Source: Corynebacterium cystitidis
GTDB lineage: Bacteria > Actinomycetota > Actinomycetes > Mycobacteriales > Mycobacteriaceae
Length of the DNA: 64,000 bases
Reading direction: 5' to 3'
Assembly: GCF_900187295.1 (NCBI RefSeq)
Contig: NZ_LT906473.1
Location: 2,852,001-2,916,000, forward strand
The notes beneath the pieces are model-generated. The model did no database searches and was not told where the DNA came from. It saw nothing but the letters and a program-made list of their open reading frames with translations. Made by a program: the position numbers and the translations under genes. This document shows, one piece after another, positions 48,132 to 64,000 of this stretch. Each line of letters starts with the position of its first letter. Position 1 is the first letter of the stretch.

Positions 48132-48147
48132 TGCTATGCTGTGAGCA
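48122..48147 (+). promoter_or_regulatory. Leaderless promoter of the AlbA_2 gene
   Basis: TATGCT (48135-48140) is a good -10. Transcription would then begin at about 48147, the A of the ATG, giving a leaderless mRNA. The TTTGTAATGA operator half-site lies between the -35 and -10. Confidence 0.55.
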
Positions 48148-49853
48148 TGACGTGGGATTCTTTCAGGCTCTCTGAGACTCTGGCACAGCTGCGCGCATTC
48201 GGTGATGACACCACACTCGTTGAGTGCAAAACGGCCAAGGGAGGTATTCCTGCGGATATTGGTGAAACTCTATGCGCTTTCGCCAATATGCCTCAGACTG
48301 GGTCCATCCTTCTCGGGGTTAGTGAATCCTTAGGCTTCGTTGTTACTGGTGTTGACGATCCTTCACAGATGGAGAAATCCGTTGTCAATGTAAATCGCAA
48401 CTCGGTGGATCCGGCACCACAGTTGCACATTTCGCACCTCGCTGTCGACGGCAAAGCTGTCGTTGCTATCGATGTTATGCCTCTCCTGCCACAGGAGAAG
48501 CCTGCCCGCTATCAGAAGAATGCTTATCTGAGGCAAGCAGATGGCGATTATGTCATGAATTCCAATGATCTGCGGATGCTGAGTATTTCGGCCCTGAACG
48601 AGCCTGAGCGGGTTGACTACGACTTTGCCCCACTCCCCAGCACTGGCATCGAACTTCTTGACCAGTCAGCCCTGGAGGAATACTTAAAAACGATCCGTTC
48701 GTCACGATCCCGCCTTGCGAACATTTCGGATCACCAACAGTTGTTGCAAATGACCAACGTGTGCGACACGAACGGAAACCTTCGCTTGGGAGGCCTCTAT
48801 GCGTTGGGATATCTTCCACAGGCTTTTGATCCTGCTCTTGGTGCAACAGCTGCGGTTCGGCTCACCCGTGATGGGAGAAAAGGAAGAAACCAGAACCTTG
48901 TCGAGTTGGAAGGCCCCTTGCCTGCCATGCTCGAAGCAGGGATGGCCTGGGTGCAGCAGAATACGACTATTACCAGTAGATATAACGATCACGGCCACCT
49001 CGTCGACACGCCCGAGTTCCCTCCCTCCGCAATTCGTGAAGTACTAGCTAATGCTTTGGTGCACAGGGATCTGGGTCCGTCACTCGAGGTGGGCAAGAAG
49101 GTGGAGATTCGGGTCACTGAGCGGTCTCTGGTGGTGTCGAACCCGGGCGGACTTCGCGGGGTGACGAGGGATCAACTCCTAAGCTCGTCTCTGACGAAAG
49201 CTCCGGTAAATAAGCGGCTCTATGAAATTGCTCGGTACCTGCGCATGCCCGACGGCCAACGTGTCATCGAGGGTGAAGGGGGCGGGATCCAAGAGATCTT
49301 GACTGTTACCCGCGAGGCGCGTTTGCCTGAGCCGCGGTTTATCGATACCGGCGTTGAATTCAAAGTCATCTTTCCCCGCGGTTCACGTTTTAGCGAAGAG
49401 GACGAGGCCTGGCTTTCGTCACTCTCTGACTCGCTGACCCCTACCGAAGAAGACCTACTGGTGACGTTGCGCACTAGCGGACCTATGTCGATCGGCCGCC
49501 TTGGACTGCGGTATGTGCCCATGAGTCAGAATGCTTGCGTGGCCATGGTGGACAAGCTGGAATCCCTCGGGGTGGTCTCGCTTGTCGACGACATCGTTGC
49601 GCTGGCCGATGGGGCAACAGGCGACCACCCTTCCATCCAGGACCTCTCTTCCTTGGGGGTCAATGTGCCGGCGCTCTTCGAAGCCTTGTCCAGTTTGGGT
49701 GATTCCACGGTTCACCAGTTATCCGAATACACCGGGCTGTCTGTTGGTCAAGTCCGATACGCCCTTGACCCCCTCATCACGCAGGGCTATGCCAAAATGA
49801 ATGGTGGCCAGGGGTCACGTCGGACCACATATAGCCTGACTACCAGAGTATGA
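48147..49853 (+). CDS. Schlafen AlbA_2 / RecG-C-like DNA-binding regulator
   Basis: 568 aa from ATG 48147 (GTG 48141 possible). The N-terminal AlbA_2 domain is TLVECKTAKGGIPADIGETL with AFANMPQTGSILLGVSES. The middle is an HATPase-like RecG-C domain (AIREVLANALVHRDLG, VVSNPGGLRGVTRDQLLSSS, IEGEGGGIQEIL). The C-terminus carries two winged-helix segments (LLVTLRTSGPMSIGRLGLRY; HQLSEYTGLSVGQVRYALDP, QGSRRTTYSL). Such proteins are often transcriptional regulators in accessory or defence islands. The dyad-rich repeats around it suggest autoregulation. A decayed paralogue is at 58048-59136. Confidence 0.88.
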   Translation: MTWDSFRLSETLAQLRAFGDDTTLVECKTAKGGIPADIGETLCAFANMPQTGSILLGVSESLGFVVTGVDDPSQMEKSVVNVNRNSVDPAPQLHISHLAVDGKAVVAIDVMPLLPQEKPARYQKNAYLRQADGDYVMNSNDLRMLSISALNEPERVDYDFAPLPSTGIELLDQSALEEYLKTIRSSRSRLANISDHQQLLQMTNVCDTNGNLRLGGLYALGYLPQAFDPALGATAAVRLTRDGRKGRNQNLVELEGPLPAMLEAGMAWVQQNTTITSRYNDHGHLVDTPEFPPSAIREVLANALVHRDLGPSLEVGKKVEIRVTERSLVVSNPGGLRGVTRDQLLSSSLTKAPVNKRLYEIARYLRMPDGQRVIEGEGGGIQEILTVTREARLPEPRFIDTGVEFKVIFPRGSRFSEEDEAWLSSLSDSLTPTEEDLLVTLRTSGPMSIGRLGLRYVPMSQNACVAMVDKLESLGVVSLVDDIVALADGATGDHPSIQDLSSLGVNVPALFEALSSLGDSTVHQLSEYTGLSVGQVRYALDPLITQGYAKMNGGQGSRRTTYSLTTRV

Positions 49854-50987: not shown

Positions 50988-51029
50988 CTGGCAAATCTTC
51001 GAGCTAACCCCTGGCAAATCTTCGAGCTA
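50988..51029 (+). repeat. 23-bp iterons (2 copies) before DUF4143 gene 1
   Basis: CTGGCAAATCTTCGAGCTA occurs at 50988-51006 and 51011-51029, a period of exactly 23 bp. A -10-like TAGTAT at 51044-51049 places the -35 (TTCGAG, 51021) inside the second copy. Confidence 0.92.
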
Positions 51030-51077
51030 GCGTGTTGAACAGGTAGTATTGCGCCTACGCGAAAAATTGATTCTGAG

Positions 51078-52088
51078 GTGCCGCGCTATGGTGTCGCGGA
51101 AGCACGAGATGTGCTGAGATTTGCCCCACTTCTGGTGGTGCAGGGTGCGCGGCAAGTGGGGAAAACGACACTTCTGCGTCAGGTGTTTGATGGGAACGAG
51201 GCAGTTTTTACTAGTTTGGGCGATGCCGCAACGAGGGAAGCCGCGCTGACAGATCCGCGTGGTTTCGTCGAACAGGCCCCGCAGAAGACTTTGGTTATTG
51301 ATGAAGCCCAGCGTGTTCCTGAGCTTGCTTTGGCGTTCAAGTCCGCGATTGACACCCTCGCCGATCTGGACGGTAGGCAATTACAGGATCTTCTGACTTA
51401 TTGCGGTCACCAGGCGTGTCTGATTCTTTGGTGGGGAGAGCAGAGTCGTTGAGGGTGTTTCCTTTTAGCCAGGGTGAAATTATTCAGCGGACAATACCCG
51501 AGGATTGGGTGGCGTGGATCGTTTCCGGTGCACCGGGTCTGACTGACCTCGCCCCGCTTCACGCGGATGAGGTCCGTGAAACTGTTCTGAGAGGGGGTTA
51601 TCCGGAGCCGCTGAAGCGCGATTCACAACGCTCTATTGAACATTGGTTTTTGTCGTACGTGGAGAGGATTGCCACCCATGACGTGGCGGAGTTGGTCACA
51701 CGCAGTGAGTTCGCTTCGCACGTCCACACTTTATTGAGATTGTTGGCTTCGTGGGGCCAGTCTGAGCTGGTGAATGCGAAGGTTGCGCGTTCGGTCGGGG
51801 TGTCTGAAAGTGCCGTTTCTAGATTTTTCATTATCGTCAACGAGACGATGAGGTAGACATGGTCGTGGAATTGACTGAGGCCGCTTGATCCTCGTTGAAG
51901 TGAAAAGCGCGCGCGATGTTGATCATCGCTCGTGGAAGAATATTGAGAAGATGATGGCCCAGCATGGTGAGCGTGTGATCGCCGGGGTGGTGTTTTACCT
52001 TGGCGAGAGCCCGCACCGAATCGCTGTGGATAAAAGCTCGGTGTATCTGTTGCCGGTATCGACGTTGTGGCAGGTCCCCGCTGTTTAA
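51078..52088 (+). pseudogene. AAA/DUF4143 ATPase 1, decayed
   Basis: GTG 51078 starts VPRYGVAEARDVLRFAPLLV with Walker A QGARQVGKTTLLRQ and Walker B TLVIDEAQRVPEL. At about 51378 the frame shifts; the next frame supplies AITGSSDLLRSPGVSDSLVG and RVFPFSQGEI up to a stop at 51856. Most of the DUF4143 domain is deleted, and the C-terminal nuclease-like piece (ILVEVKSARDVDHRSWKNIE .. STLWQVPAV) remains in a third frame to 52088. This gives at least two frameshifts plus a deletion. It is related in architecture to the genes at 61183 and 62740, not a close copy. Confidence 0.88.
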
Positions 52089-52195
52089 GGCTTCGCTTTT
52101 CGACGGCCTGGTGGAACTGCAGGGGCTGCCCTCCTCAAGATCAACCTCGCGCTATTGGGGGTGCTGCCCTTCGCGTTGCATCAAACCATTGCACG

Positions 52196-52216
52196 CTATA
52201 ACGGCACGCGTTATAG
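52196..52216. promoter_or_regulatory. higBA operator dyad
   Basis: CTATAAC-GGCACGC-GTTATAG, a perfect 7-bp inverted repeat just before the higB start, is the expected kind of site for autorepression by HigA. Confidence 0.7.
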
Positions 52217-52224
52217 TTGTCTTC

Positions 52225-52506
52225 GTGATCGAATCTTTCAGAGATAAACACACGGAAGATCTCTGGCTCAACCACCGATCAGCCAAAATCCCTTCGGAGA
52301 TCCTGCGCAAGGCCGTAAAACAACTCAAGATGTTGGATTTTGCCACCTCGTTGGACGACTTGAGAATCCCTCCCGGAAACAGGCTTGAAAAACTTACCGG
52401 TGACCGGAAAGGCCAACACAGTATCCGAATAAACCATCAATGGCGAGTGTGCTTCACCTGGATAGACGGCGCAGCCAGAAATGTAGAAATTGTTGACTAC
52501 CACTAG
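52225..52506 (+). CDS. higB: HigB-family toxin (RelE superfamily)
   Basis: 93 aa from GTG 52225 (VIESFRDKHTEDLWLNH). Ribosome-dependent mRNA interferase of a type II toxin-antitoxin system. It has the HigB-1 pattern: MLDFATSLDDLRIPPGNRLE, KLTGDRKGQHSIRINHQWRV (K/R catalytic region), and the terminal IVDYH. Full length. As in other higBA loci the toxin gene comes first, and higA follows 7 bp later. It sits between a decayed ATPase gene and an ABC transporter operon. Confidence 0.93.
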   Translation: MIESFRDKHTEDLWLNHRSAKIPSEILRKAVKQLKMLDFATSLDDLRIPPGNRLEKLTGDRKGQHSIRINHQWRVCFTWIDGAARNVEIVDYH

Positions 52507-52513
52507 GAGTGTG

Positions 52514-52813
52514 ATGACGATGACTAATAATCGGATGATTTTTCACCCCGGCGAATTTCTTCAAGAGGATTTCTTGGAGCCACTAGGACTCTCCCAGAAT
52601 GCGCTTGCTCGAGCAATTAATGTGCCACCTCGCAGGATCAACGAGATCGTTCTAGGTAAGCGAGGTATCTCAGCAGATACCGCATTGCGTCTGGCACGTT
52701 TCTTCGGCAATAGCCCAGAGTTCTGGATGAATATGCAGAAAGATTACGAGCTTGAATCAGCGCGAGCTGCAGCCTCCGATCTCGATTCCATCGTCCCAAT
52801 GGAAGTAGCCTAG
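52514..52813 (+). CDS. higA: HigA-family antitoxin
   Basis: 99 aa from ATG 52514 (ATG 52520 also possible) behind AGGAG. An XRE-type HTH (PLGLSQNALARAINVPPRRI, NEIVLGKRGISADTALRLAR) follows the HPGEFLQEDFLEP start typical of HigA/VapI antitoxins. FFGNSPEFWMNMQKDYELE ends the domain. It binds HigB and represses the operon, presumably at the dyad 52196-52216. Confidence 0.95.
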   Translation: MTMTNNRMIFHPGEFLQEDFLEPLGLSQNALARAINVPPRRINEIVLGKRGISADTALRLARFFGNSPEFWMNMQKDYELESARAAASDLDSIVPMEVA

Positions 52814-52869
52814 CTCGCCCCTTACGTCGGCCATTGCTGCGCGCAGCCGGGAACTCCGGGCGGTTCATC

Positions 52870-53604
52870 CTACCGATCCGCGCGCCGCAGCCACCAGGCA
52901 CTCGCCAACAACCCAACCACTGCGAGCACACCTGACGCCACGAGATAACCGACAAGCACCACGGGGTCAGTACTCTCACCGGTGGTTGCGTAACCAGCAG
53001 CGAACATCACGCGTGAGACCAGTACCGGAGGCAAGAGGTAGTCAAAGATCTTGATATCAGCCGCCAATAGTACCGCCCCTGCCATCGACACCCCAGCAGC
53101 CACCACGATGGGCAGGGTGAAGTTCTTGGTCATCATGGACAGCCAGGATTGCCACACGGCGACGGCCGCACCAGGAATAATAGCCAGCAGAAGAATCATG
53201 GCTACATTCAGTGGCGGATGGCCCGGTACATTAAGCAAGAACCCGACCGCAAGGGCAAGCACGAAGAAGACCATCTGCATCGCTGTTACCAGCACTGTTA
53301 ATGCCCCAGCTTTAGCCACGACGATGCTGCCGCTATTGCGCGGACTGGTGAGCAGGAAAGCTAGATTGTTGTCTTTGTGCTCTCTGCGCCAAGTGGTGGC
53401 CGCCAGGATAGCAATACCCACATTCATGAACAGCATGCCGTAAAACAGGGTGGTCTGCCCGAGAAAGCTCTCCCAGCCCGGAGTCAGTACCCCAAGATTC
53501 ATCTGATAGTTGATGGAAGCAAGAAGAATGGAAAGACCAGGGATAAGGAGTAGGATAATCCCGAAATGGGAGCGACGGAATTTCAGCAATTCATTAGCGA
53601 GCAT
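52870..53604 (-). CDS. ABC-2 permease, lantibiotic-immunity type (second subunit)
   Basis: 244 aa, about six TM helices (FGIILLLIPGLSILLASINY, LTVLVTAMQMVFFVLALAVG, VVLVGYLVASGVLAVVGLLA). A conserved cytoplasmic segment ATTWRREHKDNNLAFLLTSP resembles the MutE/MutG-EpiE class of permeases. Starts within the stop of the first permease gene (1-bp overlap). With the partner permease and ATPase it probably forms an exporter that removes peptide antibiotics from the membrane. Confidence 0.87.
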   Translation of the reverse strand: MLANELLKFRRSHFGIILLLIPGLSILLASINYQMNLGVLTPGWESFLGQTTLFYGMLFMNVGIAILAATTWRREHKDNNLAFLLTSPRNSGSIVVAKAGALTVLVTAMQMVFFVLALAVGFLLNVPGHPPLNVAMILLLAIIPGAAVAVWQSWLSMMTKNFTLPIVVAAGVSMAGAVLLAADIKIFDYLLPPVLVSRVMFAAGYATTGESTDPVVLVGYLVASGVLAVVGLLASAWWLRRADR

Positions 53605-54353
53605 TAGATTTCCTTCCTGTTGATCCGGCGGCTGAGCACGGCCATGAACCCTAGCGCTAAGCCCAGGTAGCAGCCCCAGGCCAACCAGTTGGGGGTTACC
53701 GGGACGACACCGCCCTCAGCGAAGGTGTAAGGGGTGACCATGGCGAAGTAGCCGAATGGGTTAATGGCAGCCACCCACACCGGAGAGAGCATCGCAGCGT
53801 TGGCGAGCATCCCGCCGACTACTCCCAGTCCGAGAACAACAAGTTGGGATTCCACGAGTGTGGCGCAGCTGATGAACACTGCCCCGATGGCCAATGCGGT
53901 TCCATACAGCGCAAGGCAGGTCACAGCGATGGTCGCCAGATTCGGTGGCGGGGGCGCACCAACCAACACGGGTATAGCAACCAGCAGCGTCGCCTCGACT
54001 ACCTTGGCAAGCAAAGTCAGCGAGCCTAAGACGAAGAATTTGATACCCAACAGGTCCCCTGGAGGCGTGCCGACGATTGCATTAAGCCGCCACCCATGAG
54101 CAAGGTGTTCCAGATCCGCCAGGCGGGATGCGATGATTGCTAGTTGTAGCGGGGTGATCAGCGCGTAGATGACGATGTATCCGACGAGGTGGCCTGCCCA
54201 CATCTGCTCTGGTTCAGCAACAAAACTTGCAACCTGGTCGTCCCGGCCAAAGCCCATGGAACTCATCATGACAATCACCGCGCTCAACCCCAGGGTTAAA
54301 ACAAGTATCCGGGAGCGCTTCAGTTTGGCGTATTCAATCAGAAGTGTCCTCAT
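53604..54353 (-). CDS. ABC-2 permease, lantibiotic-immunity type (first subunit)
   Basis: 249 aa, six predicted TM helices (ILVLTLGLSAVIVMMSSMGF, LVGYIVIYALITPLQLAIIA, LVVLGLGVVGGMLANAAMLS). The cytoplasmic loop ASRLADLEHLAHGWRLNAIV matches the EHL.gW pattern of lantibiotic ABC permeases. It overlaps the ATPase gene by 4 bp and abuts the second permease, so the three are one operon with the upstream two-component genes. Confidence 0.88.
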   Translation of the reverse strand: MRTLLIEYAKLKRSRILVLTLGLSAVIVMMSSMGFGRDDQVASFVAEPEQMWAGHLVGYIVIYALITPLQLAIIASRLADLEHLAHGWRLNAIVGTPPGDLLGIKFFVLGSLTLLAKVVEATLLVAIPVLVGAPPPPNLATIAVTCLALYGTALAIGAVFISCATLVESQLVVLGLGVVGGMLANAAMLSPVWVAAINPFGYFAMVTPYTFAEGGVVPVTPNWLAWGCYLGLALGFMAVLSRRINRKEI

Positions 54354-55261
54354 GCTAACGCCTCCTGTTTTCCGGTGAGTGCGATGAAGATGTCTTCCAG
54401 GCTGTGTCGCTCGCGCACCATCTGATAGATGGGTACGCCTGCGTGAACCAGCTGGACGCAGACCTCAGCAGCCTGATCATTGCTCAACCCGTCGATACGC
54501 AAGCTTCCGCGAGCAGTAGTCACCTGGAAGTGAGGCAAAAGCTTCACTGCCCGCTGGGCTTGGGGTGTGTCGATGCGCAGGGTTGGCTGGCTGGTTTCAT
54601 AGAGTTCGTCCAGCCCGCCGGAGAAAACGAGGCGGCCATGGTTAATGATGGTTAGCTCTGTGGCCATCTTCTCAATTTCAGACAGCAAGTGGCTGGACAC
54701 CAATACCGTGCGCCCCTGGTCGCGTGCCAGGGAGATGATGAGTTCCCGGATTTCTTCGATTCCGGCGGGGTCAAGCCCGTTGGTCGGCTCATCCAGGATG
54801 AGCAACTGGGGGTTGCGTACCAGCGCCATGGCGATACCGAGGCGCTGTTTCATCCCCAGCGAATAGTTTTTAACCAGCTTGTTCATCTGTTTTTCCATCC
54901 GCACTAGCGCGATGGCCTCACGCACATTGGCCTCGTCGGCATGCACAAGACGGGCAACGATACGCATGTTTTCCGCGCCGGTGAGGTGCTGGTAGCCGGA
55001 GGGCTGCTCAATAAGCGCACCGACATGCTGCACAAGCTCAGGCCGTGAGTTGGCGGTCAGCTCTTGCCCGAAGAGGCGTATAGCGCCATGGGTTGGTGTG
55101 ATCAAGCCCAGCAGCATTTTCATGGTGGTGCTTTTGCCGGAGCCGTTGGGTCCGAGCAGCCCGTGGACGCGTCCTGGTTCGATGCTTAGGTCGAGCTTGT
55201 CGACGACTACCGCCTTACCGTAGGCCTTCGTCAGCCCGTGAGTTTCAATAACTGTTGCCAT
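54350..55261 (-). CDS. ABC transporter ATP-binding protein (BcrA/MutF-like)
   Basis: 303 aa from ATG 55261 (MATVIETHGLTKAYGKAVVV), with ggaag close upstream; longer starts (55270, 55297) are possible. Walker A LLGPNGSGKSTTMKML, signature NYSLGMKQRLGIAMAL, Walker B LLILDEPTNGLDP and the H-loop VSSHLLSEIEK are all intact. The C-terminal ~80 residues are typical of the BcrA/lantibiotic immunity group. Energises the two adjacent permeases; substrates are probably antimicrobial peptides. Confidence 0.93.
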   Translation of the reverse strand: MATVIETHGLTKAYGKAVVVDKLDLSIEPGRVHGLLGPNGSGKSTTMKMLLGLITPTHGAIRLFGQELTANSRPELVQHVGALIEQPSGYQHLTGAENMRIVARLVHADEANVREAIALVRMEKQMNKLVKNYSLGMKQRLGIAMALVRNPQLLILDEPTNGLDPAGIEEIRELIISLARDQGRTVLVSSHLLSEIEKMATELTIINHGRLVFSGGLDELYETSQPTLRIDTPQAQRAVKLLPHFQVTTARGSLRIDGLSNDQAAEVCVQLVHAGVPIYQMVRERHSLEDIFIALTGKQEALA

Positions 55262-55321
55262 GTCTTCCATCATGTTTTTCCCGGCCGGGCAAAACATCGG
55301 GCTGTGGCATGAACTTGTGTG

Positions 55322-55993
55322 TCAGCCCTGGGTATGAGGATCAACCAGGCCGGTGCGGTAGGCGAAGATCACGGCGTGGACGCGGTCACGTGATCCGGTC
55401 TTGGCCAGGATGCGCCCGACGTGGGTTTTCACGGTGGCCATGGTGATGAACATGCGTTGGCTGATCTCGGTGTTGGACCAGCCCTGGGCGATGGCGATGA
55501 GGATTTCTTTCTCGCGTTCGGTCAGCCGCTCCAGGATTTTCACATCGTCTGCTCCCGGCGCGCTCACCGGCGATTGGGTGCGCAGCCGCGAGACCAATCG
55601 GGTGGTGGCACGCGGGGAGATGATCGCCTCACCTTGATGAACGGTGCGGACCGAGCGTAACAAGGTCTCCGGTTCGGTGTCTTTGAGTAAGAAACCGCTG
55701 GCACCAGCTGCGAGTCCGTTTATCACGTAGTCTTGGTCGTCGAAAGTGGTCAAGATAACTACTGAGGTATCCGGGTGGGCAGCGACAAGCTCAGCGGTGG
55801 CGCTGATCCCGTCGAGAAGCGGCATTTGCACGTCGATAAGCACAATGTCCACCGGCTGCGCGGCAGCTTTCTCGATCGCTTCCGCCCCATTGTGCGCCAT
55901 CCAGCGCACCTGCATGTCCGGCTGCGAGGACACAATCATGTTGATGCCCTCCACAAATAAGGGCTGATCATCCACTAATCCGAGTGTGATCAC
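55322..55993 (-). CDS. NarL-family response regulator
   Basis: 223 aa from GTG 55993, which overlaps the kinase stop (GTGA) and has a perfect AAGGAGG. The receiver domain is MITLGLVDDQPLFVEG with Asp54 (VLIDVQMP), T (VILTTFDDQ) and K (LLKDTEPE). The LuxR HTH is LTEREKEILIAIAQGWSNTE, with MATVKTHVGRILAKTGSRDR. Likely activates the downstream ABC operon when the sensor meets a membrane-active compound. Confidence 0.93.
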   Translation of the reverse strand: MITLGLVDDQPLFVEGINMIVSSQPDMQVRWMAHNGAEAIEKAAAQPVDIVLIDVQMPLLDGISATAELVAAHPDTSVVILTTFDDQDYVINGLAAGASGFLLKDTEPETLLRSVRTVHQGEAIISPRATTRLVSRLRTQSPVSAPGADDVKILERLTEREKEILIAIAQGWSNTEISQRMFITMATVKTHVGRILAKTGSRDRVHAVIFAYRTGLVDPHTQG

Positions 55994-57096
55994 GGCTCCT
56001 CCTTCAACGGCAGCCTCGCAGTCACGTACCACCGATTGTGCTTGTCGACGACATCCAGGCTGCCCCCAAGCAACTGCGCACGCCTGCGCATTCCCGCTAT
56101 CCCCAGCCCGGTACCAGGCTCGCTGGAGCCGGTAACCCGGTTACTTACTTCCAGGCACACTTCTGTTGGTGACCACCGCACAGTGACCTCGATTGGTCCG
56201 GTGCCGTGGGTGCGCGCATTAGTGATGGCTTCCTGGGCAATCCGGTAGAGCGTCAGAGACGTAGAGTCACGCAGATCATTTGGGGGATTGCCGATGGTGG
56301 TGAGTGCATCGGCGTCGAAAAGCAAAGAAGGAATGTCCGTGTGGCTGGCTCGTGGTTGTGCTGAGGCGGAATCGCCCTCGCGTAGGACCTCGACAACACC
56401 ACGCATTTCGCGCAGGGAATTGCGTGCGACCGTGCTGATTGTGCGTAGCGCTTGCTGCTGAGCGGCGGGCTCGGGGTGGTAGAGCGCGCCGTCAGCCTGG
56501 GCGACAACCGCGGTGAGTGAGTGGGTGACAATATCGTGAATTTCGTGGGCGATCAGCGTGCGTTGCTGGGCTTGCTGCAACTCAAATTGTTCGCGCTGGC
56601 GAGCCAACGACAGCTCAACTTCGCGGGTCCTGCTGTGTTCCTCGCGCTGGCGCAGCAGCCCCAGCATGGCAAAAACAGTCAGGAAGGTCAGCCCCCACGC
56701 CACATACAGCAAGCGTTGCTGCCACGGCTCGCGCGAAATATCGCCAACGACCAGCGTCACCGCCAGGAACACCCCAGCGTAGAGGGCGATGGCCGTGAGC
56801 AGGCGCGCTGTGCCGGTGAGATCGCGGAAAATGATGTAGGAGGCAACACAAGCTGCCACGATCACACCAGGCGTAAGCATGGGTTCAAAAGCTGCGGCGG
56901 TTAACGCGGCCAGCAGCGCCACAACAGTGGCCAGCGGCCAGCGTCGGCGCGCCAAGACTGCTACGAAAATGAGCGCAGCCAGCACATATGGGAAGGGGCG
57001 TGCCACCGTGGAGGCGCCGATAAGGCAGGTACTCGCAGCGATTGTTGCTGCCACCAGATCCAGGACACACCGCGAAGAAAAAGAAGGCACCCCCAC
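55990..57096 (-). CDS. Sensor histidine kinase
   Basis: 368 aa. Four to five N-terminal TM helices fill ~150 residues (PYVLAALIFVAVLARRRWPL and others) with almost no extracellular loop, the 'intramembrane-sensing' style common for antibiotic-response kinases. HisKA_3 box RTLIAHEIHDIVTHSLTAVV. The HATPase end is SSEPGTGLGIAGMRRRAQLL. The N-box is degraded to LYRIAQEAITNARTHG. First gene of the kinase-regulator-ABC operon. Confidence 0.92.
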   Translation of the reverse strand: MGVPSFSSRCVLDLVAATIAASTCLIGASTVARPFPYVLAALIFVAVLARRRWPLATVVALLAALTAAAFEPMLTPGVIVAACVASYIIFRDLTGTARLLTAIALYAGVFLAVTLVVGDISREPWQQRLLYVAWGLTFLTVFAMLGLLRQREEHSRTREVELSLARQREQFELQQAQQRTLIAHEIHDIVTHSLTAVVAQADGALYHPEPAAQQQALRTISTVARNSLREMRGVVEVLREGDSASAQPRASHTDIPSLLFDADALTTIGNPPNDLRDSTSLTLYRIAQEAITNARTHGTGPIEVTVRWSPTEVCLEVSNRVTGSSEPGTGLGIAGMRRRAQLLGGSLDVVDKHNRWYVTARLPLKEEP

Positions 57097-57243
57097 AGAC
57101 TAATGCTGGGCTGCCCGCAAAACGTCATACCTGGGTAGGACTGCGTGAGCGGGCATCGGAAGGAATCCGATCAAACGGGCAGTAAAGTCCTTAACCAGGA
57201 ATTACCGACTGTCGCTTCGCAGGGATTAGGAGTCCCGGTGGGA

Positions 57244-57498
57244 TCAGTAGTGATACCGACACCCGGCGATGAATATCGTCGAATCCTGGATCGAATAGAT
57301 CAACCGGTGCTCTTCATTGATGCGTCGAGACCAATAGCCACTGAAATCATGCTTTAGAGGCTCCGGTTTTCCGATGCCTCTAGTGCCGTTGCGGATAATA
57401 TCGCGGATCAACTGGTTGATTCGCTTCAACATTTTACGGTCATGCTGCTGCCACCACACATAGTCTTCCCAGGCGTGTGTGGACCAGGAAATATTCAT
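57244..57498 (-). CDS. yoeB: YoeB-family toxin
   Basis: 84 aa from ATG 57498 (MNISWSTHAWEDYVWWQQHD). mRNA interferase acting at the ribosomal A site. The E. coli YoeB active residues are kept: Glu of GKPEPLKHDFSGYWSRRI, the Arg in WSRRI, and the terminal CRYHY with its His. Full length. It follows yefM by 10 bp. Confidence 0.95.
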   Translation of the reverse strand: MNISWSTHAWEDYVWWQQHDRKMLKRINQLIRDIIRNGTRGIGKPEPLKHDFSGYWSRRINEEHRLIYSIQDSTIFIAGCRYHY

Positions 57499-57508
57499 GT
57501 TAAGGAAT

Positions 57509-57769
57509 CTATGCCTCTTCGTCGAGCAGCTCGTGGACAACACCACCGCCAGCTTCAAGCTCCGCGATGGATTCACGTAAGCGTTTGCTGTTTTCCGGCG
57601 AGCGCATAAGATACGCAGTTTCTTGCAGAGAGTTGTAATCATCTAGAGCGATCATGACAACTGGATCACGTCCGGTACGCGTAATAACGACAGGTTCCCG
57701 ATCATCAATAACGGAATCCATAACAGCTGCGTAGTTATTGCGTGATTCTGTAAAAGATATGGTTTTCAT
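57509..57769 (-). CDS. yefM: YefM/Phd-family antitoxin
   Basis: 86 aa, MKTISFTESRNNYAAVMDSV. The N-terminal Phd/YefM DNA-binding fold continues with EPVVITRTGRDPVVMIALDD, and the C-terminal tail NSKRLRESIAELEAGGG should wrap the toxin. Start behind gaggtcaag. Co-repressor of its own operon together with YoeB. Confidence 0.95.
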   Translation of the reverse strand: MKTISFTESRNNYAAVMDSVIDDREPVVITRTGRDPVVMIALDDYNSLQETAYLMRSPENSKRLRESIAELEAGGGVVHELLDEEA

Positions 57770-57789
57770 CTTGACCTCCTCACCTCGGA

Positions 57790-57851
57790 GTGTACATGAT
57801 CACGTACACCTTAAGGTGCTGTGATTGTGGTCCGAGCTGACAATGTGTACA
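57790..57851. promoter_or_regulatory. yefM-yoeB operator (TGTACA type)
   Basis: GTGTACATGATCACGTACAC (57790-57809) is a near-perfect palindrome containing TGTACA, and another TGTACA lies at 57846-57851. TGTACA is the known core bound by YefM-YoeB in E. coli. Confidence 0.75.
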
Positions 57852-57963
57852 GAAGATTCTCACCAGGACCGTACCCAAATCGTTGTCGCCTGGTATGAAG
57901 CCCAGGCATAGAGCTAGCTTGCCCGCTTGACGACGAAGGCCCGCCCCGTCGCCAACGCCCCCA
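57852..57963. other. Short gene-free stretch
   Basis: Nothing recognised between the yefM operator and the repeat cluster of the second AlbA_2 gene. Confidence 0.4.
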
Positions 57964-58041
57964 CACTCACACAGTGCGAGTCAGAGTGTGAGTCACAGTG
58001 TGACTTTTTCACAGTATGAGTCCAAGAGTGGCAGTGTGAGT
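57964..58041 (+). repeat. Short iterons over the promoter of AlbA_2 relic
   Basis: The motif CAGTGTGAGT and close variants occur at about 57972, 57984, 57996, 58012 and 58032 (spacings 12, 12, 16, 20), with inverted partners ACACTCACAC before and GCACTGTG after. It resembles a multi-site operator specific to this gene and differs from the TTTGTAATGAG sites of the paralogue. Confidence 0.8.
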
Positions 58042-58047
58042 TGCACT

Positions 58048-59136
58048 GTGGCTGTGGAGATTACGAATGAAGCGCAGCTTGTGGCTCTTATTGCCACTCT
58101 GCGGCGTCGCGGAGGCGACTGTGCCACCGTCGAGTTAAAGAGTGCGCAGGGAGGTGTCCCAGAGGATCTTCCCCGTACGCTGAGCGCTTTTGCGAATATG
58201 CTTCCGGTGGACTGATTATCCTCGGGGTTGATGAACGCGATGATTTCGCACTTCGGGGTCTTGCGGATGTTGCTAAACTTCACGCGCAAGAGGCAGTCCA
58301 TTATGATGTGCAGCCTATTCCAGGTTCGACAATAGATGACCTTGACCAGCAGCTTTCTGTGGATTTATTGTCCAGGGCCCGCGAAGCATCTCCCCGTTTA
58401 GCCCTGGTTACCGATGACGATACTCTCCTTCGCCTCATGCAGGTTGTCAGCGGCAGTGGCGAGTTAACTTTGGCTGGTAATTACGCGCTGGGCTATTATC
58501 CGCAAGGGCCTAACCCCGCTTTGGCTGTGACTGTCGCGGAACGCCTGCCAGAAAATACGCACGGCAACCGGACTCGTGATCTAGAGCGCTTTGAGGGGCC
58601 GGTCCCAGATCTGTTGCACAGCGTCATGGCGTGGGCGCACACTCACCTGAGTCGTACGCAGCGGATGTCGTCGGAAGGCGAAATGCGAGATGAATATGAA
58701 ATCCCCCTGGGAGCTGTGCGTGAAGCGGTGGCCAATGCCTTGGTTCACCGCGATCTCGGGCCTTTCACCTTGGGGGTGGGCCAGGCTATCGATATTAGGC
58801 TCACACCCGATGCCTTGATCATCAGCAGTCCTGGAGGATTGAAAGGGCTTACTGTCGAAGCGCTGAAGGGTGCGGACTTAACCCGTCGGGAAGTTAACCA
58901 GCGACTGTATGCGCTGGTCCGTCATCTGCGCACTGCCGACGGCAGCCGGATCATCGAGGGAGAAGGCGGCGGTGTCCAAACACAGTCAACCCATCAGTTT
59001 CGGCGATCTCGTTCGGCTTTCCGGCTTAAGCGCCAGCAAGGTCCGTTACGCTCTAAATTCGCTTGTCGACGCCAACGTTGTGCACATGGAAGGCAGCCAG
59101 GGCGATCGCAACACGACTTATAGCTTGCGGTCGTAG
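58048..59136 (+). pseudogene. AlbA_2 regulator paralogue, decayed
   Basis: Starts at GTG 58048 or 58054 (VEITNEAQLVALIATLRRRG). The AlbA_2 motif is TVELKSAQGGVPEDLPRTLS. A frameshift after AFANM (about 58197) is followed by ASGGLIILGVDE. Around 58290 some 60-65 residues are missing relative to the gene at 48147. The RecG-C region is well kept (AVREAVANALVHRDLGPFTL, IISSPGGLKGLTVEALKGAD, IIEGEGGGVQ). A second frameshift near 58980 puts the final winged helix (LVRLSGLSASKVRYALNSLV, GDRNTTYSL) in another frame. Confidence 0.88.
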
Positions 59137-59142
59137 TGATGA

Positions 59143-59850
59143 CTAAAGCCCGTCAGGTGAAGCCAATTTGTCGTGTCTACCGTATTGCGGGGTTTCTTCC
59201 CAGCCAGAGAGGACAGCCACGAAGCCACGGCCGGGGATCCAGGCTGGGCCACCGGAATCACCGCTGACAGTTCCTGGGGCGTCGACAAGCAAAGAAGTGC
59301 CGCGCACATGATTAATGGTTCCGCAGTGGGTTTCCCGGGAGCTAGCACCCCACAGGCAGATCGGTTCGCCTGCGCGGACTTCACTAACGGGAACGTAAGT
59401 ATCACCGGTTAGATCGTTGGGACCAGCGACAACGTGGTCGAGAAGGCGGATGCGGGCGACGTCACCGATGCCAGCAAACTGGGGTAAGAAATTAACAAAT
59501 TGGGTGAAGAAATTGGACGCTTCAACAAAGCCGATCACTTCTTTGTTCTGGTTAAACACTGGTTCACCAGCAATGCCACAATGGCCGGCGGTGTAGGCGG
59601 TGTGGTGTTCACGTTCAATGAAGCCGAGAGTGCAACTATTGTCGATGCCTATTCCGTGGAGAGCGTAGATTACGTCGCCCTGACTGACCACGGTGCCTTC
59701 TGGTGCGGAGGCATTGAGATGGCCGCTGAGCACGGAGGCACCATCCAGGGCTTCTCCTGGGATGCTGCTGGCGTCGGCTTGGGTAGCGGGCAAGGAAACG
59801 GTCGCTAGAAAAGCCGCAGCGATGGAGGCAACAGCCGTTTTGATACGCAT
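59143..59850 (-). CDS. Secreted trypsin-like serine protease
   Basis: 235 aa from ATG 59850 (MRIKTAVASIAAAFLATVSL) with a Sec signal ending near ATQADA. S1-family triad: His in TAYTAGHCGIAGE, Asp probably in GDVARIRLLD, and Ser in GTVSGDSGGPAWIPGRG. One likely disulfide is between CLWGA and HCGTI. The length is at the short end for the family. Exported; substrate unknown. Ends 6 bp from the convergent AlbA_2 relic. Confidence 0.88.
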   Translation of the reverse strand: MRIKTAVASIAAAFLATVSLPATQADASSIPGEALDGASVLSGHLNASAPEGTVVSQGDVIYALHGIGIDNSCTLGFIEREHHTAYTAGHCGIAGEPVFNQNKEVIGFVEASNFFTQFVNFLPQFAGIGDVARIRLLDHVVAGPNDLTGDTYVPVSEVRAGEPICLWGASSRETHCGTINHVRGTSLLVDAPGTVSGDSGGPAWIPGRGFVAVLSGWEETPQYGRHDKLASPDGL

Positions 59851-59970
59851 GGCGAGATCCTTTCGGGTTGTGGCCACAAACCATGGACCACTTTAGTGAC
59901 TGTGTGTTGGGGGAGGCAGGGAAACAAAAGTATGGATACATTCGGCTACCCTGATCGCCCATGCCACGTC

Positions 59971-60402
59971 TTAGGAGAAAGGCGGGGTGATGAGCAGCTC
60001 GATGCTTGTCGGTAAGATCAGTCTGTCGTCGCTAAGGGCAAAGCCTTCCGGCGACCGGAACTGCAAGGTTGCTTTATTTGACCAGCCAAGATCGCCGATC
60101 AGCCCCGGATTATCTGGATCCCTAGCTTCTTTTGATTCCACATGACCGGCAATTTGAATACTACTATCGCTAATCGCGATGGTGTGGCGTAAGAAACTGT
60201 CCGCTAAAGCTCGGGGTTCGTCGGATATTTCGATTACTGCCTCAGTTTTCTCCTGGCTCGCAAGCGCGATGCACGCAGCCCCTTCAGCAGCAGCGGTACC
60301 ACCATTCCACGCTAGGTTGCGATCCACCTTCCGGTCCCCTAGAACATGGAAAAGGGGATAGTCAGGGTAAGGATGGATAATAGTGAGGCTAAAACGCGTC
60401 AT
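59971..60402 (-). CDS. Unknown protein, 143 aa
   Basis: ATG 60402, MTRFSLTIIHPYPDYPLFHV. No signal peptide or TM helix. A mixed alpha/beta composition with GGTAAAEGAACIALASQEKT and LTSIELLITPPFS-like hydrophobic ends. No family recognised. Second gene of a pair with 60459-60896 (56-bp gap), both on the minus strand and upstream of the protease. The pairing could be a toxin/immunity or regulator/effector arrangement, but nothing in the sequence proves it. Confidence 0.65.
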   Translation of the reverse strand: MTRFSLTIIHPYPDYPLFHVLGDRKVDRNLAWNGGTAAAEGAACIALASQEKTEAVIEISDEPRALADSFLRHTIAISDSSIQIAGHVESKEARDPDNPGLIGDLGWSNKATLQFRSPEGFALSDDRLILPTSIELLITPPFS

Positions 60403-60458
60403 CGGATTCCTCCAAGTGCACACTCAAGTGGGACTAGATGCGTCCGGCAGAGCAATAT

Positions 60459-60896
60459 TCATTCTTTGCCGAACCACTGGTCTATTGCTTTTTGAATATC
60501 AACCTGGGGATCAGTTGTAAACGCAGCTATTCCATCCATGAAGGTAAGAAGGTGCATTTCCTTCGGTTCTTTGTGTGCAATAGTGGCTGCGGCTGTGGCT
60601 AGTGAATAAACGTCGGATAAATAGGCAACACTGCTGTTATTTTCCTCGCGTTCATAGGCATCCAGGAGCAGGTCATCGCGTTCTTCCATCCTGGCCACAG
60701 CTTGACGGCTAATCGCATCGAGATCATCGCCCTTTAACGCGCTGACCAGATCGGGTGGGACATCGCCAGGATGAATATATCGCAGATAACTCGCTACTAT
60801 GTGGCCCAAAATTCTGCGCCTATCAGCACTATTAAACCGACCCATTAATTGCTCGATTACGGGCCTCGATTCGGTTTCGGATTGGCGATCACCCAT
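60459..60896 (-). CDS. Unknown helical protein, 145 aa
   Basis: ATG 60896 behind agaggattc. Acidic and mostly helical (RPVIEQLMGRFNSADRRRIL, ISRQAVARMEERDDLLLDAY, SLATAAATIAHKEPKEMHLL). Soluble. No known domain recognised. Probably co-transcribed with the 143-aa gene downstream. Divergent from the DUF4143 gene 2. Confidence 0.65.
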   Translation of the reverse strand: MGDRQSETESRPVIEQLMGRFNSADRRRILGHIVASYLRYIHPGDVPPDLVSALKGDDLDAISRQAVARMEERDDLLLDAYEREENNSSVAYLSDVYSLATAAATIAHKEPKEMHLLTFMDGIAAFTTDPQVDIQKAIDQWFGKE

Positions 60897-61073
60897 GTGA
60901 ATCCTCTACAACGCTTACTGCCACGGCCTTCCGATCGTGCTCAGAGTCCTAAATCCGCACCCACCAAATATAGCAAGCAGCTGCGCTCCTTTTTTTGGGG
61001 CGGTGCGGAGACGGTTACTCCCCCGTGCTTATCGACGATCTCACCTCCTGCCCCAGTTGCACACGACACAGAT
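60897..61073. other. Gene-free upstream region
   Basis: No gene seen. Contains a cctttttttgg T-run near 60990. It leads into the iteron array. Confidence 0.4.
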
Positions 61074-61165
61074 CCGACCAAAAGTGCAGTAACTACCCGA
61101 CCGGTGGGTCACGAAGTGCCCGACCAAACGTGCAGTAGGTTCCCGACCAAACGCGCAGTAGGCCC
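61074..61165 (+). repeat. 23-bp iterons (4 units) before DUF4143 gene 2
   Basis: Units begin at 61074, 61097, 61120 and 61143, each exactly 23 bp apart. Three read CCGACCAAA(A/C)GTGCAGTA or CCGACCAAACGCGCAGTA; the second unit (61097) keeps CCGACC but is otherwise degenerate. The last unit ends 17 bp before the start codon and would cover the -35 of a promoter with TACTTT as -10. Confidence 0.93.
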
Positions 61166-61182
61166 CGTGATCAGGTACTTTA

Positions 61183-62436
61183 GTGAGTTTGTCATATCGT
61201 GTTCGCGCTCTCGACCAGAGGCTTGACTACCTTGCCCAGTATTTCACGGCTATTGCTATCGAGGGACCTAAAGCAGTCGGAAAGACTGAGACCGCTCTGC
61301 GCCGCGTGGGCGAAGTTTTTCGTATGGACTCCGCGGATGATCGGGACCGTTTCCTCGCCACCGATCTGCTTTCCAAAACGGAACAGAACCCGATTTTGAT
61401 CGACGAATGGCAGCTTCTTCCTGAGTCGTGGGATATTGTTCGCCGCACAGTCGATGCTGGTGCCCCACCCGGCAGTATTTTCTTGACAGGTTCGGCCACA
61501 CCTGCGCCAGGGGTCACCACCCACACTGGTGCGGGCAGAATCATGACCGCTCGGTTACGTCCTTTCGGTTTGTGTGAGACAACACCAGAAGAGGACGCAA
61601 TCTCCTTGGGTGATCTACTCACTGGCGAGACACAAATCGAGGCCGAGGCTACTTTTACCCTGGATGATTACATCAGGGAATTAGCTACGACGGGCCTTCC
61701 TGCCGCGTCAGCACTTCCCTCTCACGCCCAGAGTGATTTTCTGTCTGGCTACGTTCAGCGCATTGTTGATCGTGAGCTTCCGGCGCAGGGCTATACGGTT
61801 CGCAACCGTCAGGGACTGTTGTCGTGGCTGCGTGCTTATGCCCGCGCGACTGGCACGGACGCGAGTTATACCCAGTTGTTGGCGCGGGCGACTGCGGGTG
61901 ATGGCAATGCGCCGAGTAAACGGACAACCGCTGTGTATCGGGAGAAGTTGTCGGAGATTTGGATGGTGGACCCGCTGCCAGCATGGGATTCTCTGTTCCA
62001 CCTCATTCCTCGCCAGACGGTCGCACCGAAACATTATCTTGCCGACGTTGCTCTGTCCTTATATTTCGCGGGCATCCGTCCCCGCCAGCTGAATACTTCT
62101 CAGAACGCGAGTCGCTTCGGTCAGTTCTTTGAGTCTTTCGCGGTGCATAGCGCGAGGGTCGCCGGCTCCGCTCACGGGTTGAAGGCCAGTCATGTGCGGA
62201 CCAAGGGTGGTGAGCGCGAGATTGATCTTGTGCTCGAATCTCGCGACGGCGCTGTGCTCGCCTTCGAGATGAAGCTGGCCGGTCGCATCCGCGATGAAGA
62301 TGTCCGCCACCTGACCTGGCTCCGCGACCAGCTCGGCGAAGACCTCGTTGAGGCAGTGGTGCTCTACACGGGTCGATACGCTTATCGACGCCCTGACGGT
62401 GTCGCCGTTATCCCACTGTCGCTCCTCAGGGCTTAG
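61183..62436 (+). CDS. AAA/DUF4143 ATPase 2, intact
   Basis: 417 aa from GTG 61183 (VSLSYRVRALDQRLDYL). The AAA_14 domain has Walker A IEGPKAVGKTETALRR, Walker B ILIDEWQLLPESWD and sensor SIFLTGSATPAPG. The middle DUF4143 domain (KRTTAVYREKLSEIWMVDPL, VDVALSLYFAG-like segment) has a winged-helix character. The C-terminal PD-(D/E)XK-like signature is GGEREIDLVLESRDG with VLAFEMKLAG. Members of this family are common in accessory regions and of unclear role. The promoter lies under gene-specific 23-bp iterons, suggesting autoregulation. Confidence 0.9.
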   Translation: MSLSYRVRALDQRLDYLAQYFTAIAIEGPKAVGKTETALRRVGEVFRMDSADDRDRFLATDLLSKTEQNPILIDEWQLLPESWDIVRRTVDAGAPPGSIFLTGSATPAPGVTTHTGAGRIMTARLRPFGLCETTPEEDAISLGDLLTGETQIEAEATFTLDDYIRELATTGLPAASALPSHAQSDFLSGYVQRIVDRELPAQGYTVRNRQGLLSWLRAYARATGTDASYTQLLARATAGDGNAPSKRTTAVYREKLSEIWMVDPLPAWDSLFHLIPRQTVAPKHYLADVALSLYFAGIRPRQLNTSQNASRFGQFFESFAVHSARVAGSAHGLKASHVRTKGGEREIDLVLESRDGAVLAFEMKLAGRIRDEDVRHLTWLRDQLGEDLVEAVVLYTGRYAYRRPDGVAVIPLSLLRA

Positions 62437-62635
62437 GGTTTGCTGGGGCCCGGAAAGTGCGAGTCAAGATGCCATCCGACACGCAGCTAACCCCCTAACT
62501 CCTTATCGAGATTTTCCCTGGCCGCCATGCTAATCAATGGGGGTATACTGCGCCCACCACGGTTGGAACCTGTTATTACATGCAGCGCCATTCCCACCAC
62601 TCATTTCCTGGTCTTGGTAACTGATCTTGCCACGC
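62437..62635. other. Gene-free stretch
   Basis: About 200 bp between the two DUF4143 genes with no recognisable gene or terminator. Confidence 0.4.
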
Positions 62636-62727
62636 GCCAAACACTGGAATGAAATCACGCCAAATACTGGAACAGAAATTTGCCAAACACTGGAATTGAA
62701 ACGCGCCAAACACTGTAATTCACTGGT
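62636..62727 (+). repeat. 23-bp iterons (4 units) before DUF4143 gene 3
   Basis: GCCAAACACTGGAAT and near variants begin at 62636, 62659, 62682 and 62705, exactly 23 bp apart. The last copy carries one change (GG to GT) that creates TGTAAT, a possible -10, so promoter and iteron coincide. Confidence 0.94.
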
Positions 62728-62739
62728 AGGATGGCCTTC

Positions 62740-64000
62740 ATGAAGTATCTTCCACGGCTAGCAGATGACGATCTCGCTTTCCGTCTCAAGGCAAAAGGCG
62801 CGGTGTTGATTGAGGGCCCAAAGTGGTGTGGCAAAACGACGACAGCCCGCGCCGCAGCAACTAGTGTCTTGTCAATGGATCAGCCTGAAATGGCGGCTCA
62901 ATACAGACAAATGGCAGAGACTGCTCCAACGCTTCTACTCGAAGGTGAGACTCCAAGGCTCATCGACGAATGGCAGGTGGCGCCGACGTTGTGGAATACG
63001 GTTCGCTACGAAGTGGATCGAAGAGGAGAGCCTGGACAGTTCATTCTGACCGGGTCTGCGATGCCCGTAGAACTCGATAGCGCTACACACACGGGTACAG
63101 GACGCATCACGAGAATGCGAATGCGTCCGATGAGTCTCTTTGAATCAGGCGACTCTACTGGCCATGTGTCTTTGCGGAAACTTTTCGATGGGGACTCTCC
63201 CGCAGCAACCGCTCAGGCCGATCTTGAGGAGATCGCCTACCTGCTCGCTCGTGGTGGATGGCCACAGGCGGTAACAACGAAGGATCGCAAAGCTGCGCTT
63301 TTTCATGCTCGGGATTACGTGGATGCTGTCGTCTCAAACGATATTCGCCGGGTTGATTCTGTAAAGAGGGATGCTGATAAGGCAGAACGTTTACTCCGTT
63401 CTTACGGCCGACATTGCGCTACGTCCGCCTCACTGGAGACCATACGATTGGATGTCTTAGGGGATAAAGACGACACTTTTGATGCGAAAACGCTCTACAA
63501 CTACATTGACGCTTTGAAGAAGATATTCGTCATTGAAGACGTACCGGCGTGGAACCCCAATGTCAGGTCTAAGACTGCAATACGAACAGCTGATACACGA
63601 TTCTTTGTTGATCCTTCCATTGCTGTCGCAGCACTACGCCTCGGTCCACGCGATTTGATCTTCGATCTCAACACGATGGGTTTAATATTTGAGAATCTTG
63701 TCGTTCGTGATCTTCGGGTTTACGCGGAACTTTTAGATGGCGCTGTCTACCATTATCGGGACAAGTCTGGGTTGGAATGTGATGCCGTCGTTCACCTGCG
63801 TGATGGATCTTACGGCTTGATTGAAGTAAAAATCGGTGGCGACACAGCTATCGAGCAGGGCGCAGAAAGCTTGAAAACACTCGCCGCCCATATCGATACA
63901 GCACGTATGCGACCACCCGCTTTTCTCGCAGTCGTCACCGCCGTCGGCCCTTACGCCTATCCCCGTCCAGACGGAGTCAAGGTCATACCCATTACAACCT
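62740..64000 (+). CDS. AAA/DUF4143 ATPase 3 (runs off the window)
   Basis: At least 420 codons, open to the window end; ATG 62740 with ggtagg upstream (ATG 62731 in frame too). The AAA domain begins YLPRLADDDLAFRLKAKGAV with Walker A GPKWCGKTTTARA, Walker B RLIDEWQVAPTLW and sensor QFILTGSAMP. The DUF4143 part includes FFVDPSIAVAALRLGPRDLI and FENLVVRDLRVYA. The C-terminal nuclease-like signature is GLECDAVVHLRDGSYGLIEV followed by K. It is a different subgroup from gene 2 but has the same domain order. Its tail YPRPDGVKVIPIT parallels YRRPDGVAVIPLS in gene 2. Confidence 0.9.
   Translation, partial: MKYLPRLADDDLAFRLKAKGAVLIEGPKWCGKTTTARAAATSVLSMDQPEMAAQYRQMAETAPTLLLEGETPRLIDEWQVAPTLWNTVRYEVDRRGEPGQFILTGSAMPVELDSATHTGTGRITRMRMRPMSLFESGDSTGHVSLRKLFDGDSPAATAQADLEEIAYLLARGGWPQAVTTKDRKAALFHARDYVDAVVSNDIRRVDSVKRDADKAERLLRSYGRHCATSASLETIRLDVLGDKDDTFDAKTLYNYIDALKKIFVIEDVPAWNPNVRSKTAIRTADTRFFVDPSIAVAALRLGPRDLIFDLNTMGLIFENLVVRDLRVYAELLDGAVYHYRDKSGLECDAVVHLRDGSYGLIEVKIGGDTAIEQGAESLKTLAAHIDTARMRPPAFLAVVTAVGPYAYPRPDGVKVIPITT

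Follow-up and report, generated by a model that had tools for sequence, protein, structure and literature searches.

Private 23-bp repeat arrays upstream of AAA_14-DUF4143 (PDC-S01) ATPase genes as candidate self-recognised operators

The boxes of MalT are direct repeats at the promoter, and archaeal Orc1/Cdc6 have private ORB repeats linked to their gene. In plasmid iteron/Rep systems and with the C proteins of restriction-modification, direct repeats near the gene start are read by the adjacent product, resulting in negative autoregulation. The present work concerns repeat arrays upstream of AAA_14-DUF4143 ATPase genes of the PDC-S01 family, in a 64,000-nucleotide stretch of Corynebacterium cystitidis (contig NZ_LT906473.1, positions 2,852,001 to 2,916,000; hereafter the window) and in related loci. 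The best reading, which we consider probable from the sequences at hand, is that gene and array form a self-binding, autoregulated STAND-like ATPase-nuclease cassette. PDC-S01 has been reported to rank fourth in frequency among prokaryotic defence systems, with 29,494 bacterial and 9,986 archaeal instances (PMC12988326), and was the most frequent individual defence locus, 10,358, of a rumen survey (PMC13356809). The available portions of both papers portray it as common, uncharacterised and without a mechanism, and that of PMC12988326 reports no anti-phage activity for the family. Arrays 5' of DUF4143 or PDC-S01 genes were not described in the literature searched, a weak absence as preprints and most subscription papers were outside the search.

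A sequence-only reading of the window had proposed direct repeats spaced exactly 23 bp before three ATPase genes, and these were recovered by a repeat search, all on the forward strand. Array 1 (50988..51029; CTGGCAAATCTTCGAGCTA) consists of two units with identical 19-mers at 50988 and 51011; its unit had just two matches in the window at up to 3 mismatches. Array 2 (61074..61171) had been credited with four units, three of which (61074, 61120 and 61143) are good, while the copy at 61097 is degenerate and has 66% identity to the reference copy. Array 3 (62636..62719) contains four units of GCCAAACACTGGAAT and its variants. The gene following array 1, at 51078..52070, had been listed as one of the ATPase genes; it turned out to be an AAA_14-DUF4143 pseudogene of three fragments in different frames (51078-51356, 51359-51796 and 51873-52070), similar to locus L004 in both gene and repeat unit. 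The other two encode AAA_14-DUF4143 ATPase-nucleases, the first of 417 aa (61183..62436), the second, locus L003, located at 62740..64000 and ending 11 bases beyond the window, with a second ATG at 62731. These two are adjacent, contrary to the description of all three genes as non-adjacent.

The arrays are far more general than the three genes of the window. The best self-match lag (15-40) was 23 in 184 of 211 homologue upstream regions from several phyla, and 177/211 scored at least 9.5 at this lag. For these counts, proteins with identical first 150 residues were collapsed and near-identical orthologues were counted individually. In the controls, lag 23 was the best in 14/211 regions inside genes, 9/206 downstream regions, 6/202 regions at -600..-310 and 10/211 shuffles, with scores of at least 9.5 in 1, 2, 0 and 0 cases, respectively. 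Since the controls gave lag 23 in 3-7% against 184/211 upstream, chance and simple repeats were excluded. The enrichment upstream of homologues that had been suggested as a check was thus observed, and later also in the family of a Prevotella genome, where 73 of 349 genomes had a match: 69 of the 88 matches were used as loci, one being partial, and the best lag was 23 in 67 of the 68 analysed. In the class of the same genome, 2/99 genomes matched at 1e-60, the centre genome included.

Within the genus Corynebacterium, 36 of 61 genomes had a match; the best lag was 23 or 46 in 49 of 57 upstream regions, 22 or 44 in four and another value in four. In the family (8/101 genomes) and the class (40/148) together, the corresponding numbers were 56, two and three of 61. 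The genus, family and class counts of upstream regions include the own-genome copies. Among the best 80 of 584 named-genome relatives of the 62740 protein, plus six viral contigs, lag 23 or 46 was determined in 79 of 85 upstream regions. Ten chosen plasmid and phage records gave lag 23 in eight cases, a weak 22 in Thermus, and 44 tied with 22 and 32 in Rhizobium; rhizobial relatives tend to lag 22. The lags of further plasmid loci were 22 for L265 (score 14.5) and, weakly, L268 (8), a weak 46 for L266 (9) and 39/40 for L269; L235-L238 were weak or off-register, and no array lag was found at L267, L233 and L234. The longest array belongs to L061, with a period of 22 and a lag score of 156 in about 210 bases. 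The array length varies also between related genes, amounting to about 4.4 units in L048 and 2.4 in L049.

For the unit profile, 174 arrays with scores of at least 9.5 were folded at 23 and set to one register. The resulting consensus begins N-N-C-A-A-A-T/C, followed by a variable core at positions 7-11, an A-rich part at 12-18 with T at 14, and four free bases. The common CAAA core seen in the window recurs at positions 2-5, as C in 70%, A in 77%, A in 71% and A in 58% of the arrays. Some arrays (L014-L016 and L137 among the loci noted) alternate two units, which gives a 46-bp order.

A genome search located 11 DUF4143 places in the 3.01-Mb genome of C. cystitidis. All six intact tandem-type AAA_14-DUF4143 genes have a 23-bp array upstream, the unit differing per family; the four outside the window carry three (L001, L002) or four (L004, L005) copies at period 23. 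Arrays are retained at three decayed copies, namely 51078, L008 and the sibling of the 62740 gene (L243, genome 2918929-2919498, outside the window), which has two 62740-like units. This tally leaves out L009/L010 (one truncated gene, start lost), L011 and some fragments, and L007 represents a different subclass. Because a private array precedes almost every tandem-type copy that was examined, the likely DNA ligand can be named from the sequence, and binding, regulation and structure thereby become open to test. Furthermore, there are hundreds of natural protein/site pairs from which the rules of DNA reading by a winged helix could be learned.

The claim that each gene has its own array was substantiated for the one unit searched genome-wide, that of 62740. 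With as many as 2 mismatches allowed, it gave 29 matches in forward and 19 in reverse orientation, compared with 16 and 10 for the reversed pattern. Three of the five exact sites are in its own array, one is at the decayed sibling and one at a module relic; given this confinement, the idea that a host factor governs a shared regulon through the 62740 unit was rejected. The relic (L239, genome 2832830, outside the window) has the unit near a fragment similar to the C terminus. Two of the four one-mismatch sites lie elsewhere, singly. No common unit was found in 18 pairs of co-resident copies, yet their divergence equals that of other pairs of equal identity (0.61 vs 0.60 at 30-40% identity), close pairs being too few to judge.

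Relatives 55-67% identical to the 62740 protein occur in Bacillota, Bacteroidota, Spirochaetota, Fibrobacterota, Gardnerella and others, which is circumstantial evidence for the selfish module proposed earlier. The flanks of L005 are hardly conserved among 20 relatives (empty-site comparison). The arrays could be imagined as the termini or target sites used when the gene transposes or homes, to which the patchy spread, the decayed copies, the nuclease domain and the close relatives in several phyla would correspond; as the repeats are one-sided and in phase with the promoter, we give this explanation hardly any weight.

The proteins of 61183 and 62740 contain AAA_14 and DUF4143 (Pfam) and are full-length matches of the PADLOC model PDC-S01 (PDLC04790) with E-values of 7.5e-64 and 2.4e-64; as in PDC-S01, the ATPase is fused to PD-(D/E)xK. 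Residues K32, D76 and D348 were invariant in 67 sequences, and E77, E346, E362 and K364 were conserved in at least 90%. In the structure model of the 62740 protein (m424950ec7280; 419 aa), the AAA+ core is predicted to be joined to a winged helix of the STAND fold, and the C-terminal domain is of the nuclease type. Such a fold is compatible with the proposal that the winged-helix part reads the array. The closest folds include MalT (8BOB) and DNA-bound Orc1/Cdc6 (2QBY), matches in a viral structure library were limited to clamp-loader and general AAA+ folds, and a sequence search of solved structures to E 0.1 gave no match. The Orc1/Cdc6 match, together with private repeats adjoining an AAA+ gene, would fit repeats of the replication or partition type, like the iterons of plasmid Rep or the archaeal ORB, with the gene belonging to a replicon or left over from one. 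This origin is very unlikely, as one genome carries several chromosomal copies, the Pfam scan shows no replication domain, and tblastn with the 62740 protein matched 236 of 72,556 plasmids. Instead of a Rep-type initiator on a plasmid, as in an iteron replicon, chromosomal copies with no Rep domain were found.

The co-variation of protein and unit was determined with the 142 of 174 arrays that had a register margin of at least 1.5; the close clade contributed 83 of these. Unit base 0 co-varies with residue 342, which lies next to the nuclease motif, above the simulated phylogenetic null. The signal between the helix-turn-helix recognition helix and the unit bases was weaker, and the first co-change test was noisy at low counts. 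The earlier expectation of repeat-protein co-variation proved robust at residue 342 and is less sure at the recognition helix, by which reading of the unit is suggested. Forty-eight held-out sequences were used, leaving out 14 near-duplicates and 5 with weak register. The rule for residue 342 predicted 29/33, better than the majority (25) and the nearest neighbour (22). As the repeat partly changes with the protein, it is probable that every such protein recognises, and thereby controls, the gene that encodes it.

Several results weigh against this interpretation. The family-wise limit (6.0-6.3) was not reached by residue 250, and equally high scores came from pairs for which no DNA contact is expected: T279 with unit 1 (7.1), F289 with unit 17 (6.9) and L353 with unit 1 (6.5). 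The held-out rule for unit 11 predicted 31/38, equal to the nearest neighbour (32; majority 23), and that for unit 10 failed with 26/39 (majority 27, nearest neighbour 28). The Mantel peaks from the 48 held-out sequences alone fall elsewhere. In the 142 mixed-clade sequences, AAA-domain residues lead the mutual information with units 4 and 15, which was judged to be a deep-clade register artefact. The best lag differed from 23 in 27 of the 211 upstream regions, nine of these having 22, and the phasing of the -10 boxes outside Bacteroidota was weak (R 0.25, p 0.03). That nearest neighbours match the residue rules in predicting units 10-11 is what would be expected if some other host factor read the array and the co-variation of the ATPase reflected shared descent. 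Such a factor is improbable in view of the different units among paralogues in one cell, the accompaniment of the gene by arrays across phyla, the lack of a regulon for the 62740 unit searched, and the 342-unit 0 pair exceeding its null.

The arrays abut or overlap the predicted promoter boxes, so that direct repeats are present at the gene's own promoter as in autoregulated operators. On inspection of the sequence, putative -10 boxes were located 3' of array 1 (TAGTAT, 51044..51049), array 2 (TACTTT, 61176..61181) and array 3 (TAGGAT, 62727..62732). The ATG of the 62740 gene lies only 7 bases after TAGGAT and therefore a leaderless start is likely. The Bacteroidota-type -7 box was found 51-54 nt past the last unit start in 25/40 cases, and in a few others at 30-31 or 74-79. 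Folding these boxes at 23 gave R 0.79 and other periods were nearly equal, referring to a fixed distance. Among 76 scored sigma-70-type promoters, the -35 box started at -2 from the last unit in 15, a count inflated by the likeness of the unit to a -35 box, and at 19-21 in 20. The latter position, directly behind the last unit, and the MalT-like fold would also suit positive autoregulation, in which the ATP-bound protein assembles beside -35 and activates its own gene as a self-amplifying alarm. We regard this as rather unlikely: besides the 15 overlaps, several boxes are near-consensus (TTGACA-17-TATGAT in L148) and hence need no activator. Repression is favoured by the overlap with good boxes, activation being the less likely alternative.

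The simplest account is a protein that binds its own private operator and autoregulates its gene. The proposed cassette comprises the AAA_14-DUF4143 gene and its 22-23 bp repeat array, and the product would be a STAND-like ATPase with helix-turn-helix and PD-(D/E)xK nuclease domains. The protein would bind its own array, probably as neighbouring protomers that each occupy one unit. The recognition helix (about 244-252) may read the variable core, and the first two bases of the unit may be read by the loop with residue 342 that precedes the nuclease motif. Given the overlap or close contact of array and promoter, the most likely effect of binding is repression of the gene; we infer this together with the oligomer, the release of repression and the nuclease target. 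The variable core would let co-resident paralogues function without cross-control. A more tentative extension, which we rate as doubtful, is self-barcoding: the hypervariable array would be an identity tag read by the helix-turn-helix and the nuclease-domain loop, and the nuclease would act upon a change in occupancy. Invading DNA or a rival copy could cause that change by titrating the protein, and the diversification of the tags would keep copies in one cell independent, like incompatibility groups. If true, one of the most frequent unexplained defence candidates would be a self/non-self system with specificity readable from sequence.

 In a sister subclass, the L007-type genes (PADLOC PDLC04787; 2/148 class genomes at 1e-60) have no 23-bp array. 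Their best lag in the range 30-60 was 39 or 40 in 14 of 17 members (one weak), the repeat not being found in the other 3 of the 17 examined, and 15/17 had at least one palindrome, e.g., TTTTCAGGTATACCTGAAAA twice in L251; both counts are without a shuffle control. The 39-40 bp spacing, mostly palindromic and with private sequences, was noted in L007, L244-L251, L257, L259, L231, L232, L260 and L269. These repeats are a putative second operator geometry within the DUF4143 ATPase family. In the third type (L253, L254 and L256), 23-bp arrays are present. The ATPase genes of the window are flanked by a Schlafen AlbA_2 and HATPase_c_4 gene (48141-49853) and another HATPase_c_4 gene (58308-59123), and ABC-2 transporter genes, a HisKA_3 kinase and a LuxR-type response regulator are located amid them (52870-57096).

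In comparison with the known systems, the plasmid iteron/Rep and C proteins differ from the present cassette by its ATPase-nuclease reader, hypervariable unit, period of 22-23 and mostly chromosomal location; neither a Rep nor a methylase partner was seen in the window. Archaeal Orc1/Cdc6 with ORB shares AAA+ with winged helix, and private repeats beside the gene, whereas the nuclease domain, the promoter position and the many chromosomal copies are distinct here; the window proteins gave no Pfam hit to the Orc1/Cdc6 family at E <= 1. MalT and the STAND ATPases are alike in the STAND-like fold and in direct repeats at the promoter. Unlike MalT, the protein of 419 aa is modelled with a nuclease domain in place of sensor repeats, and the one unit searched suggests that its sites are confined to the gene itself. 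PDC-S01 is the same protein family, a single gene with AAA_14 ATPase and PD-(D/E)xK. Given its frequency in the published portions available, the array offers a direct handle on an abundant defence candidate for which those portions give no mechanism; these descriptions do not mention a promoter array, which would be an additional component for regulation or recognition.
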